Shown: piece by piece, positions 26,655 through 36,767 of the stretch | How positions within the stretch are numbered: the stretch's first letter is position 1 | How the letters are laid out: each line of letters begins with the position of its first letter | Source: Candidatus Hebobacterum abditum | Lineage (GTDB): Bacteria > Armatimonadota > Hebobacteria > Hebobacterales > Hebobacteraceae | Assembly (NCBI GenBank): GCA_029821875.1 | Contig: JALGXW010000040.1 | Location: forward strand, 1-51,770 | Length of the DNA stretch: 51,770 bases | Direction: 5' to 3' | Made by a program: the position numbers and the translations under genes | The notes under the pieces: generated by a model | Database searches by the model: none | What the model was told of the DNA's origin: nothing | Seen by the model: only the letters and a program-made list of their open reading frames with translations

Positions 26655-26741
26655 GTCAGGATTCCGGTTTCTCCCGCCCCGAGCACCCCGTCACCCCCAA
26701 CCAGATGGCCGTGTACGTGGCGAGGGCGTTTGGGTCCTGAG
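26655..26741 (+). pseudogene. 3' remnant of an SLH-domain protein gene
   Basis: The plus strand reads GFSRPEHPVTPNQMAVYVAR followed by A-F-G-S and TGA. This is nearly the same ending as the intact SLH proteins at 28244 and 36767 (V-T-R-D-Q-M-A-V-Y-V). Nothing upstream in this frame is SLH-like; the opposite strand instead carries an unrelated fragment. Ten bases downstream is a 13-bp terminator hairpin, so only the tail and terminator of the old gene remain. Confidence 0.55.
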
Positions 26742-26751
26742 GCGGTAGTCC

Positions 26752-26782
26752 CGTAGGGCAGGAGCGTGTCTCCTGCCCTACG
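26752..26782 (+). terminator. 13-bp hairpin after the SLH remnant
   Basis: CGTAGGGCAGGAG (26752-26764) pairs perfectly with CTCCTGCCCTACG (26770-26782) across a 5-base loop. The following GAAACAAGG is not T-rich on this strand. It could also be a dispersed palindromic repeat; a related CTCCTGC/GCAGGAG hairpin follows the other SLH gene at 36771. Confidence 0.6.
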
Positions 26783-26956
26783 AAACAAGGAAGTGATCTT
26801 CTCCCGCTGAGTCACGCCCTGAGTGCCGACGGGCTGCGCTGAACGAACGCGCCCTGGGGCGCGTCTAATAGCTGCCTCCAGTGTAAGGAGGGCGGCAGAC
26901 ATGCAGCGGCACGTCGTGTTTGCGCTCGTGGTCGTGCGGATTGGAGGTGTGGCCAG

Positions 26957-28244
26957 ATGAGCATACCTTCCAGCTTCGTCCGTTTCGCCACTGTAGTCGG
27001 CCTCGTCCATCTCCTGCTTGCCACTGTCCCGCACTACGCCCATGCCGGGGGGGGGGACCTGGCCGCCGGTAGGCCAGTTGGTTGGTGGTGGTAGTGGCTA
27101 CTCGGTAGCAGTTCAGGGAGACTACGCCTACGTGGCCGCCCTCCGCGCCATGGTTGTGATGGACATCTCCTGGCCCTCGCAGCCACGCCTGGTAGGCTAC
27201 TACGACACGCCCGGTTGGGTCACTCGGGTGGCGGTGGCCGGTGACTATGCCTATGTGATCGACCATGATTCTGGCCTGCTGGTGATCTCGGTCGCGGACC
27301 CGGCCAACCCGGTCGAAGTCGGCTTCTGCGCCACGCCCGGCGAGCCCCGTGGGATGGCGGTGGTGGGTGATTATGCCTATGTGGCCGCCTATGAGGCTGG
27401 CCTGCTGGTGATCTCGGTCGCGGACCCGGCCAACCCGGTCGAAGTCGGCTTCTGCGCCACGCCCGGCGGGCCTTGGGACGTGGCGCTGGCGGGCCGGTAT
27501 GCCTATGTTGCAGCTGGGGAGGCGGGTCTGCGGGTGATCGACGTCTCGGATCCAGCTGCCCCCGTGGAGGTGGCGTACTGGGACACGCCCGGAAGGGCCC
27601 ATGACGTGGCGGTGGTTGACGGATATGCATACCTGACAGATTACCTCTGGGGCATGTTCGTCTTCCGCGCTCTGTCCTTCGACGATGTCGGCGTCGGGCA
27701 CTGGGCACTCTGGGAGATAGAGGCATGTGTGGCGGCGGGGATCGTGGCGGGCCGCTATGACGGCCTCTACCACCCCGAGGGGTCTGTCACAAGGGCTGAG
27801 ATGGCCGTCTTCATCTCCCGCGCGCTGGCCGGTGGGGATGAAAACGTGCCCGACTTCGTCGGCACTCCCTCCTTCCGCGACGTGAACAGGTGGCACTGGG
27901 CATCCGATTATGTGGAGTACGCGGTCTCCCAGAGCGTCGTGGCTGGCTACGGTGACGGCCTCTACCACCCGGAGTACGAGGTCACCCGCGACCAGATGGC
28001 GGTGTATGTGGCCCGCGCCCTGGTCGCGCCGGAGGGAGAGGCCGGCCTGGCCGACTACGTGCCGGCCGACCCGCGGGACTTCCCCGACGTGGCCTCTGAC
28101 TTCTGGGCCTACAAGCACATCGAGTACTGCGTCGAGAACGGAGTGGTGCAGGGGTATGAAGACGGATACTACCACCCCGGGGTAGTCGTCACCCGCGATC
28201 AGATGGCGGTGTATGTGGCGAGGGCGTTCGGGTTGGTTCCATAG
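26957..28244 (+). CDS. LVIVD-repeat surface protein with three SLH domains, out of frame at a G10 tract
   Basis: ATG 26957 has GGAGG 9 bases upstream and encodes a good signal peptide ending HYAHA. Ten G residues (27047-27056) follow, and this frame then stops at a TAG near 27093. The long downstream frame (from the tract to 28244) encodes LVIVD-type propeller repeats (GDYAYVAA, GLLVISVADPANPVEVGF), then three SLH domains (about 27683-28241) ending QMAVYVARAFG. With nine Gs the signal peptide and mature protein join in frame. SLH domains bind the cell wall polymer, so this is an exported cell-surface protein. As sequenced, it is interrupted: phase-OFF, or a homopolymer error. Confidence 0.8.
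27271..27468 (+). repeat. Exact 72-bp repeat with 126-bp period inside the LVIVD domain
   Basis: Bases 27271-27342 and 27397-27468 are identical. They encode G-L-L-V-I-S-V-A-D-P-A-N-P-V-E-V-G-F and the following residues. The 42-codon period equals one propeller blade, indicating a recent duplication or gene conversion. Confidence 0.85.
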
Positions 28245-31450: not shown

Positions 31451-31952
31451 TCCTAAGAAGGAGTGCCCCCGGGGACCCACTCTCCTTGCCGCGCACGACG
31501 AGCGGCCAGGCCGAGATCGCTTATATGTCGCTCTGCCCTGCACCGCATCAGCCTCCAGTTCCGGACGTGAGGCTGCGGGCAACGGCAGTCCTGGATAGAT
31601 GGAGGCCGCGGGCGTTGAGCCCCGATTCTCGATTGGCTGGTTGCGGCCTGCAACCAGCCTGAGAAGGCCGTCACGCCCCGTCTCGTGGCCAGACGACGCG
31701 GTCTGAGTGGGCTGTCCGACCGGCCGGTCGGCATCGGTCCACGTGGATTGGCAGCCGAGGTAGTTCAGCCACACATCCCAGCTCCAGGGCCTGCGCCGCG
31801 TTTAATTTTCGTCAAAGGCACATGCCGGAGAAGGAGTCCCAGGCATTCCAGCGAAGACGTCGGCGAGGGGGTGCAACTCGGCCCTGAGCCATGCAGTGTG
31901 ACCCTACTGAGTTTCAGGCCTTGTACGAGGCAACTGCTTGGAGGGAAGGGCG
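31451..31952. other. Leader region of the InlB-repeat/SLH gene
   Basis: About 500 bases without a supported gene. A hairpin near 31459-31488 probably ends the preceding operon. A locally AT-rich patch (TTTAATTTT, about 31801-31809) could belong to a promoter, but no matching hexamer pair was found. GGAGGGAAGGG (31941-31951) is the ribosome site for ATG 31953. Confidence 0.35.
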
Positions 31953-34900
31953 ATGCACCACCACGCGCTGCTGCGCGGGCGAGCAGCAACGAGTTCCCCG
32001 CGCGGCCTACTCGGTTTGGCCCCCCTGAGGGCACACCAGCGTTTTGTCTGGCCACAGCCACTGCTTCTCGGCGTGCTTGCCGTCGCAGCCCTCGCGGTGT
32101 TCCTGTCGGCGAGCGCCGTCGATGCTCAAGCGACCACCATCTTCTCCGACGACTTCGAGACGGGCATAGTTGGGTGGACCACGGGTGGCACGCCCGATTG
32201 GTACGGCGGCGGGCCCAGCAACGGCAGCTTCTGTGTTCGTCTCCGCCGCACAGAAAGTATCCAGCAGACCATCTCCACAGTCTCCTATGAGAACATCGCC
32301 GTCTCCTTCTACATGGGAGCAAGCAGCCTCGAAGGCGCGGAGACGGTGCGAGCGCTCTGGTTCGACGGCGCGACGTGGACCGTCCTGGCGACCATAGCCA
32401 ACGGCGACCCGGAGGAGGACGGGCTCCTCCACTACTATGCGTTCGCTCTTCCGGTTGGCGCCGCGGACAACCCCGACTTCGCCCTGCGCTTCGAGGCCAA
32501 CGGAAACAACCCCGGCGATTACGGCTTCGTCGATGATGTCGTCGTCGCGGGTGACCTCATCTACTACACGCTGGACCTAACTGGTGTTGGCAATGGGTCG
32601 GTGACCGTGGACTGGACCTCGTATGCTCTTCCGTGGTCTGGCAGTTTCGCGTGGGGCACTGTAGTGACGCTGGAGGCGGTGCCCGCGGCTGGATGGCAGT
32701 TCGACAACTGGTCCGGCGGCCTGGCCGGCAGCACCAACCCCGACACCATCACCATGGACTCCGACAAGGCCGTGACTGCCAACTTCTCCCAGATCATGCA
32801 GACACTGGACCTAACAGGTGTGGGCAGTGGCTCGGTGACGGTGGACGGGACGCCGCGTGCTCTTCCCTGGTCTGGCAGCTTTGCATGGGGGAGCGTGGTG
32901 ACGCTGGAGGCGGTGCCGGTGGCTGGGTGGCAGTTCGCTAACTGGTCCGGCGACCTGGCCGGCAGCACGAATCCTGACACCGTTACCATGAACGCCGACA
33001 AATCCGTGACTGCGAACTTTGCCCAGATCATCCACACACTTGACGTGTCGGGGATCGGTAACGGCTCTATCACTGTGGACGGGACGCCGCAGTCCCTCCC
33101 CTGGTCTGGCAGCTTTGCGTGGGGCACTGTGGTCACCCTGGAGGCGGTGCCCGCGGCTGGATGGCAGTTCGACAACTGGTCGGGAGATCTGACCGGCAGC
33201 ACGAATCCTGACACCATCACCACGGACTCCGACAAGTCCGTGACCGCCAACTTCTCCCAGATCATGCACACGCTGGACCTAACTGGAGTAGGCAGTGGGT
33301 CGGTGACCGTGGACGGGACGCCGCGTGCTCTTCCCTGGTCTGGCAGCTTCGCCTGGGGCACTGTAGTGACGCTGGAGGCGGTGCCGGTGCCTGGATGGCT
33401 GTTCACCAGCTGGTCCGGCGACCTGGCCGGCAGCACGAACCCCGACACCATCACCACGGACTCCGATAAGGCCGTGACCGCCAACTTCTCGCAGATATTC
33501 CACACGTTGGACCTGACTGGAGCTGGCAGTGGGTCGGTGACGGTGGACGGGACGCCGCGTGCTCTTCCCTGGTCTGGCAGCTTTGCGTGGGGCACTGTGG
33601 TGACACTGGAGGCGGTGCCCGCGCCTGGATGGCAGTTCGACAACTGGTCGGGTGACTCGTCGCCAACTTCTCCCAGATCATGCATTCCCTGGACCTGACC
33701 GGAGTGGGCAGCGGCTCGGTGACGGTGAACGGGACGCCGCAGTCGCTCCCCTGGTCTGGCAGCTTTGCGTGGGGCACTGTGGTGACGCTGGAGGCAGTGC
33801 CCGCGGCTGGGTGGCAGTTCGATAACTGGTCCGGCGACCTGGCCGGCAGCGCCAATCCCGACACCATCACCATGGACGCCGACAAGTCCGTGACCGCCAA
33901 CTTCTCGCAGATATTCCACACGTTGGACCTGACTGGAGTTGGCACTGGCTCGGTGACCGTGGACGGGACGCCGCGTGCTCTTCCCTGGTCTGGCAGCTTT
34001 GCGTGGGGCACTGTGGTGACACTGGAGGCGGTGCCCGCGCCTGGATGGCAGTTCGACAACTGGTCGGGTGACCAACTTCTCGCAGATCATGCACGCGCTG
34101 GACCTAACTGGGGTCGGCAGTGGGTCGGCGACGGTGAACGGGACGCCGCAGTCGCTCCCCTGGTCTGGCAGCTTTGCGTGGGGCACTGTGGTGACACTGG
34201 AGGCGGTGCCGGCGGCCGGGTGGCAGTTCGACAACTGGTCTGGTGATCTCACCGGCAGCACCAACCCCGACACCATCACTATGGACTCCGACAAGGCCGT
34301 CACGGCCAACTTCTCCCAGATCATGCACTCGCTGGACCTGACCGGACTGGGCAGCGGCTCGGTGACCGTGGACGGGACGCCGCGTGCTCTTCCCTGGTCT
34401 GGTAGCTTTGCATGGGGGAGCGTCGTGACGCTGGAGGCGGTGCCGGTGGCTGGGTGGCAGTTCGCTAACTGGTCTGGTGACCTGGCCGGCAGCGCCAATC
34501 CCGACACCATCACCATGGACGCGGACAAAGCTGTCGTCGCCAACTTCTCCCAGATCATGCACTCCCTGGACCTGACCGGAGTGGGCAGCGGGTCGGTGAC
34601 CGTGAACGGGACGCCGCAGTCGCTCCCCTGGTCTGGCAGCTTTGCCTGGGGCACTGTGGTGACACTGGAGGCGGTGCCCGCGGCTGGATGGCAGTTCGAT
34701 AACTGGTCTGCCGATCTCACCGGCAGCGCCAATCCCGACACCATCACCATGGACGCCGACAAATCCGTGACTGCCAACTTCTCCCAGATCATGCACTCGC
34801 TGGACCTAACTGGGGTCGGCAGCGGGTCGGTGACCGTGGACGGGACGCCGCGTGCTCTTCCCTGGTCTGGCAGCTTTGCCTGGGGCACTGTGGTCACCCT

Positions 34901-36767
34901 GGAAGCGGTGCCCGCGGCTGGCTGGCAGTTCGATAACTGGTCTGGCGACCTGGCCGGCAGCACCAATCCCGACACCATCACCATGGACGCGGACAAGGCT
35001 GTCACCGCACACTTCTCACAGGCCTTTGCCCTCAGTCTGGACCGGACCGGCAACGGATCCGTGACGGTGGACGGGACGCCGCAGACACTTCCGTGGTCCG
35101 CGATGTTTCCACCTGGTACCACTGTGACGTTGGACGCGGTGCCAGATCCGGGCTGGCAGTTCGATAATTGGACGGGCGACTACAGCTGGGCGGACACTCC
35201 CATCACGGTCACAATGGATGCGGACAAGAGCATTACGGCGAACTTCAGCCCCCAGACGACTCTGACGATAACTGACAGCCCCCCTGGCAGCGGCTCATCG
35301 GTGAGGGTGGATAGCGTGCTCCACGCGCTGCCCTGGACGGGCTACTTCGACACCGGCACCAGCGTCACGCTGGAAGCAGTCGCAGGCCCGGGCTATGAGT
35401 TCGACTCCTGGTCGGGCGACCGGAGCTGGTCTGGCCCCGTACTGACAACGACGATCACCGAAGACACCAACCTAGTCGCGAACTTCGTCGTCGCGCCTGG
35501 CTTCTCTCTGAGCATATCGGGGAGCGGCGGCTCGGTCCTGGTCGATAGCAATGAGGTTACGTTGCCGTGGTCTGGGAACTTCGACGTCGGGGAGACTGTG
35601 ACGCTCGAGGCCGTGCCCGCGCCGGGATGGGGATTCGACGGCTGGTCGGGCGACGTCACTAGCTCGGACAACCCCATCTTCGTCACGATGAACAATCACA
35701 CATCGGTCACGGCCAACTTCTCCCGACTCGTGCATACACTGGATCTCGCCTTTGACGGGAGCGGGACCGTCGTTGTGAATGGCTCCACCTGGTCCTTGCC
35801 AGGCACAGAGGAGATATCCCAGGGCAGCATCGTAGAACTCGAGGCCCTGCCAGAGTACGGGTGGCGCTTCGTCGGCTGGTCCGGAGACGTGTCAGACACG
35901 GACAACCCGGTCGTGTTCATCATGGACAGCGACAAGACGATTACGGCCGAGTTCATCCTGCCGAGCACGTACTTCCTGACCGTGCAGAAGACGGGCTCTG
36001 GCACTGTCCTGGTGGACGATGGAATCGTCTCGCTGCCCTGGACCGGGGAGTTCACCCCGGGGACCGAGGTCGTTCTCGACGTTGTGCTGGAGGAGGACGA
36101 GGAGTTTGAGGCCTGGTCAGGAGCCCTGACGGGAAGCGACCTCCCCGCGACCGTCGTGACGGATGCGGACAAGGAGGTCACCGCACACTTCGGGTGCATC
36201 GCGAGGTTCCCCGACGTCCCGTGCGAGTACTGGGCCTTCGACGCGATAGAGACTGTTGCCGAGGTGGGACTGGTCTTCGGCTATCCCGACGGTTTCTATC
36301 GACCCCGTCTGGGCGTTGACCGAGCGCAGATGGCTTCCTTTGTCGCCAGGGCGATGCTCTTCCCGGCTGCCGTCCCGACCGGCCCGGCGGAGGCAACCTT
36401 CCCGGATGTGCCGCCTGAGTTCTGGGCCTTCGAAGCGGTAGAGTACACCGTCGACAGCGAGGTAGTTCAGGGCTATGGCGACGGGAGCTACCAGCCTGCA
36501 TACGGCGTGACGCGCGGCCAGATGGCCGTCTTCATCGCTCGCTCCATCTGCACTCCCACCGGCGAGGCCGGCTTGGCTGACTACGTGCCACCGGGGACGC
36601 CGACGTTCCCGGACGTCCCTGAGTCCTACTGGAGCTACAAGCACATCGAGTACTTGGCCGAGCGCGGTGCGGTCAAGGGATACCCAGATGGGATGTACCG
36701 CCCTACCGCCTGGGTCACCCGGGACCAGATGGCCGTATACGTCTACCGGGTCTACAATCTGGAGTGA
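31953..36767 (+). CDS. Giant InlB-B-repeat protein with three C-terminal SLH domains, frame broken in two repeats
   Basis: Signal/anchor segment at about residues 36-58, then a jelly-roll-like domain (IFSDDFETGIVGW, residues ~65-205). From residue 207 follow 16 divergent InlB B-repeats of 78 residues with core L-D-L-T-G-x-G-S-G-S-V-T-V and W-x-F-x-x-W-S-G-D. Three SLH domains (from about 36208) end in DQMAVYVYRVYNLE. Two internal deletions (52 bases near 33658; 59 bases near 34073) shift and then restore the frame. As sequenced, translation stops at 33698. The intact product would be about 1640 residues and cell-wall-bound. Adhesion is the usual inference for such repeats. Confidence 0.8.
32571..35036 (+). 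repeat. Array of eleven near-identical 234-bp repeats
   Basis: Units begin at 32571, 32805, 33039, 33273, 33507, 33689, 33923, 34098, 34332, 34566 and 34800. Spacing is exactly 234 bases except for the 33507 unit (182) and the 33923 unit (175), which carry the deletions. Five more divergent units follow to about 36190. High nucleotide identity implies ongoing recombination or gene conversion, and makes assembly error possible. Confidence 0.9.

Follow-up and report, generated by a model that had tools for sequence, protein, structure and literature searches.

Organisation of the locus

The window, the whole 51,770-nucleotide stretch of DNA analysed here, is taken from a contig of the Candidatus Hebobacterum abditum genome (G000; 4.3 Mb, 103 contigs, 95% complete). 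In it, a gene for a surface protein is divided between two reading frames at a run that, on inspection of the sequence, contains exactly ten Gs (Table 1). As the first-pass annotation had described, an ATG at 26957 preceded by GGAGG opens a signal peptide that runs into the tract and meets a stop soon after it, and in the assembled state this ORF (26957-27094) encodes 45 residues, MSIPSSFVRFATVVGLVHLLLATVPHYAHA-GGG-DLAAGRPVGWWW. The tract is the longest homopolymer of the window, the runners-up being one G7 and one C7. It occupies codons 31-34, in the 5' coding region, exceeds the cut-off of at least nine used for G/C tracts and begins at the codon right after the AHA of the signal peptide, thus encoding the first glycines of the mature protein. 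The LVIVD repeats and the three SLH domains, both scoring above their family cut-offs, identify the body as an SLH-anchored LVIVD protein, to which the signal peptide, in the assembled state, is joined out of frame only.

Table 1. Features of the split SLH/LVIVD gene and its 5' flank (window coordinates)
Feature	Position	Strand	Basis or remark
C-terminal relic of another SLH gene, HPVTPNQMAVYVARAFGS then stop	26660..26740	+	upstream of the gene; a similar relic precedes the C26 paralogue
19-codon upstream ORF (mini-ORF), MQRHVVFALVVVRIGGVAR then stop	26901..26960	+	sequence; also present in the C26 paralogue
GGAGG, ribosome-binding site of ATG 26957	26943..26947	+	sequence
Signal peptide MSIPSSFVRFATVVGLVHLLLATVPHYAHA, 30 codons, ends AHA	26957..27046	+	closely similar in the intact C26 paralogue
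G10 tract	27047..27056	+	ancestral in-frame length 9 nt; homologous to GAGGGTGGG (C26) and GAAGGGGGG (G002)
Protein body, 395 codons open	27057..28244	+	+1 frame
TAG closing the signal-peptide ORF in the G10 state	27092..27094	+	
LVIVD (beta-propeller-type) repeats	27100..27670 (outer bounds approximate)	+	PF08309, 4 stretches, E 4.2e-45
Three SLH domains	27678..28235	+	PF00395, 3 stretches, E 1.6e-33

The body lies in the +1 frame relative to ATG 26957, in keeping with the earlier statement that it occupies another frame; that frame was said to open exactly at the tract, but it is open from 26997, 50 nt 5' of it (the ORF is listed as 27018-28244). The further claim that the frames join once one G is lost or two are gained holds in silico, where G9 gives a protein of 428 residues and G12 one of 429, while G8, G10 and G11 give 37-45 residues, a one-unit change in tract length thus separating full-length from truncated product. 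Expression of the gene without any change in tract length, be it through +1 slippage (ribosomal or transcriptional) at the G run or through initiation inside the gene, is very improbable. A long G run does adjoin the frame change, and the body frame is open slightly upstream of it, but ribosomes slipping on homopolymers do not usually shift in the +1/-2 direction required here, and the intact homologues described below need no recoding. We rejected internal-start translation, for no usable start was found in the body frame that has either a ribosome-binding site or a signal peptide: TTG 27018, the sole start near the tract, lacks the former, and none of the in-frame starts leads into the latter.

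The leader carries traces of a second signal peptide. The mini-ORF corresponds to the beginning, cut short, of the 'MQRH' signal peptide found in other SLH genes, and its TGA overlaps the ATG at 26957 (ATGA), an arrangement that would make translational coupling of the two possible. Intact MQRH/MKRH signal peptides stand behind the same leader in other SLH genes of this genome (on contig C22) and of its congener, G001. A homologue in G002, from a different genus of the same family, starts with MRRFVLFLVLILRA, a signal peptide of the MRRFVLF type that resembles the window's mini-ORF. The window gene and its paralogue on contig C26 appear to be recombinant: an older signal peptide was probably truncated and a second took over. 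A perfect hairpin with a 13-bp stem (CGTAGGGCAGGAG...CTCCTGCCCTACG, -27 kcal/mol) occupies 26752-26783, in the interval that separates the SLH relic from the gene. The genome holds at least 12 near-identical copies of it, and many matches occur across relatives in the family and order, marking it as a palindromic repeat of the family as a whole, possibly a terminator or a small mobile element.

Homologues and the ancestral reading frame

Comparison within the genome and, as the first-pass annotation had proposed, with related genomes identifies two intact homologues that align in frame at the junction. The paralogue in the same genome (C26:11542-13986, - strand) is uninterrupted: starting at the ATG that corresponds to 26957, it stays open for 814 codons. 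It shares with the window gene the leader, mini-ORF, signal peptide, TWPP.GQL N-terminus, LVIVD repeats and SLH trio; identity is 82% across some 680 bp from the leader through the signal peptide to the N-terminus, and 79% in the LVIVD/SLH body. It differs in being in frame, in carrying GAGGGTGGG in place of the G10 and in having extra LVIVD repeats. At the tract its GCC GAG GGT GGG ACC TGG aligns with GCC, ten Gs and ACC TGG in the window, a difference of two substitutions and one inserted base. The homologue in G002, a single-contig genome, reads GCG GAA GGG GGG ACT TGG in frame ('VLAEGGTWPPIGQLAGG'). It (L031) has the same AEGGTWPPIGQLAGG junction, and the DNA 3' of the junction is 76% identical, but unlike the window gene it is in frame and shows no homopolymer above G6 in the part of the gene that is not masked. 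Because these two homologues fix the ancestral frame, the break between signal peptide and body is not a chance juxtaposition: the ancestral reading is signal peptide-A-(E/G)GG-TWPP(I/V)GQL in a joined frame, judged from this alignment, and the window copy is +1. The homologous nine-base stretches GAGGGTGGG and GAAGGGGGG are not long runs, and the tract is therefore not conserved as a mutable run. Disrupted copies with other inactivating mutations, which the first-pass annotation had envisaged among relatives, did not appear; both homologues are intact.

Among other species of the class the junction was found in G002 only, apart from weak pieces in G004 and G001, and the viral contigs gave no match. 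In the sole congener the gene is absent from the corresponding position, upstream of a conserved neighbour encoding a 609-residue membrane protein; because apparent Lon/Clp genes occupy that position, the congener supplies no orthologue. A second strain was sought in the genome itself, its relatives, viral contigs and named genomes, with one genome per species, and no sequence of one was found. The scan of named genomes returned, as the nearest named record, a Candidatus Hebobacteria MAG (Armatimonadota) with a similar SLH trio (72% identity), and otherwise one weak unrelated match. The class Candidatus Hebobacteria was described from Illumina-sequenced marine sediments (PMC10290634).

Constraint on the protein body

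The body bears no sign of decay. Over the SLH trio, dN/dS between the window gene and its C26 paralogue is 0.18. With eight other SLH trios of the genome used to polarise the changes, 7 nonsynonymous and 11 synonymous ones fall on the window branch, where neutrality would predict a ratio of about 3:1 (P 0.0007). This branch is tighter than that of the intact paralogue (16 to 8), and gene conversion within the SLH family could blur these counts. Synonymous divergence between the two genes is 0.09 in the signal-peptide part versus 0.4-0.6 further down. The open 395 codons and the substitution pattern on the window branch led us to reject an old pseudogene, which on these sequence comparisons is unlikely. 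The frame break is therefore recent, reversible or not real.

The SLH family and long G runs genome-wide

The SLH family of this genome is unusually large: an LVIVD/SLH protein query gave 106 matches across its 4.3 Mb, for the most part SLH trios within genes 400-1600 codons long, and 63 in the congener G001. Short C-terminal relics, consisting of the last SLH motif and a stop, adjoin full SLH genes at several places (26660-26740 in the window, and L051, L052, L053, L054 and L068), which suggests frequent duplication, recombination and loss within the family. In such a setting an ordinary recent loss-of-function frameshift, a fresh pseudogene in a large, turning-over family with no switching involved, has some appeal. 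The family has many members and several SLH-tail relics, one of them directly upstream of the gene, the gene is missing at the congener's corresponding position, and contingency tracts are not enriched in the genome. We nevertheless consider it improbable: the window branch shows neither a second lesion nor relaxed constraint, and a frameshift at G10 is mechanistically reversible whatever its history.

The genome statistics come from pattern searches and fetched stretches. The 4.3 Mb contain 35 G8, six G9, three G10 and one G13 (ten runs of nine or more); for runs of at least ten, about 1.8 are expected from run-length decay and four are observed (P ~0.1), and there is no genome-wide excess of tracts of nine or more relative to that decay. 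Among the full-length SLH genes sampled, none but the window's looks broken by a tract, and an ordinary in-frame signal peptide is present in most sibling SLH ORFs whose 5' end lies inside a fetched stretch. The G13 (C27:177820-177832), longest of all G runs in the genome, falls in no clear gene; an SLH gene (C27:179291-179971) lies about 1.5 kb away.

Reliability of the tract

The first-pass annotation had named sequencing error as its main alternative, and in that case the cells would carry nine Gs and an intact gene. A ten-base G run is a classic site of a one-base miscall, the ancestral length is nine nucleotides, and the body is constrained and free of further lesions. General failure of base calling on long G runs is nonetheless not supported, and a systematic error of this kind is unlikely, because in about 20 other G8-G10 coding runs of the same genome the assembled length preserves the frame. 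These include a G9 in a phosphate permease gene and both other coding G10s, which lie within an NHL-repeat SLH gene; about 20 G8 runs likewise fall within unbroken coding frames, and in all these frames G+C follows the codon-position pattern expected. Sampled G9-G10 coding runs in the assemblies of relatives, for example in mutL, keep their frame too. The NHL-repeat gene (C87:52149 and 52893; L025, L027) resembles the window gene in encoding an SLH surface protein with G10, here in two runs, but both derive from a recurring RGGGF motif and lie inside an unbroken frame. These two runs serve as natural stutter controls and are also candidate slippage sites.

Elsewhere in the window, at 31938-36767 (+ strand), lies an SLH gene with a signal peptide, InlB-type Flg_new_2 repeats and three SLH domains. 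It is split into three frames at two junctions (near 33657 and 34071) of near-identical 234-bp repeats, the shortened units being 52 and 59 bp short, which together make 111 bp, a multiple of three, and restore the frame. The pattern resembles misassembled or truly deleted repeats more than it does a homopolymer error. Because this gene breaks twice, the assembly may contain errors and frame breaks in this contig need caution; the two breaks, suggestive of misassembly, lend weight to a consensus error at the tract as well, although losses of 52-59 bp are a different kind of error. The in-frame runs lower the probability of an artefact, and an error confined to this one site we rate as a serious contender if on balance an unlikely one.

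A possible recent and reversible frameshift

The tract, the two frames, the ancestral frame and the undecayed body are observed features of the locus. Taken together they point, with a probability we put at roughly 0.45, to a gene for a secreted LVIVD/SLH surface protein in its OFF state, disrupted by a recent and in principle reversible slippage frameshift that would work like that of Neisseria pilC. Two substitutions would have turned an ancestral nine-base Glu/Gly stretch just past the cleavage site into a G run, to which slipped-strand mispairing would have added one G (9 to 10). With ten Gs, ATG 26957 would yield just the 45-residue secreted peptide; removing one G or adding two would bring back the full protein of 428-429 residues, and the number of glycines at this site would hardly matter. 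Such a model presumes that the ten Gs are real in the cells, that tract length changes frequently and that both states matter.

The gene may thus be a slippage on/off switch by accident at least, and by selection possibly. The probable phase switch proposed in the first-pass annotation finds support in the layout, with the G10 behind the signal-peptidase site, homologues in frame and a body without decay, and loses ground to the lack of any G-tract excess, of another tract-broken SLH gene and of a congener copy at the position. Since G runs are not in excess, the tract is absent from the homologues and the sibling genes are ordinary, such a switch would have arisen by accident, and the cells might or might not use it. 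That a glycine-coding stretch has, after duplication, newly become a true slipped-strand phase switch for an S-layer-anchored propeller-type protein is a tentative proposal that we regard as rather doubtful.

Homopolymer switching of surface proteins has been recorded chiefly in host-associated bacteria. If the switch is real, a free-living lineage would here have been caught in the act of evolving a contingency locus, its genome still holding the non-switching C26 paralogue as the 'before' state, and this would suggest that surface variation, whether against phages or grazers or for attachment, arises in uncultured environmental Armatimonadota too. A one-base error or a fresh pseudogene would be of little importance beyond annotation.

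Comparison with known phase-variable genes

Our literature searches found no paper pairing SLH or LVIVD proteins with tract-based phase variation, and none pairing Armatimonadota with phase variation; a broader search likewise listed none that names SLH domains. Among established systems, contingency tracts of Neisseria have been catalogued with a cut-off of nine or more (PMC5953494), which the window's G10 exceeds. The nearest parallel is pilC1/pilC2 of Neisseria, in which poly-G in the region encoding the signal peptide switches expression (PMC13190605) and for pilC1 a G10-to-G9 change is documented as an on-off switch (PMC5231331). Both pilC and the window gene have a poly-G run by the signal-peptide region of a surface protein, where one-base changes toggle between full-length and truncated product. 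In pilC, however, length variation is seen in isolates and is tied to phenotype, whereas the window gene is represented by one assembly in one state; its LVIVD/SLH protein is unrelated to PilC, its host is an uncultured environmental member of the Armatimonadota and its homologues are without the tract. The design is thus already known from pilC, and it is the host lineage and the class of protein that would be new.
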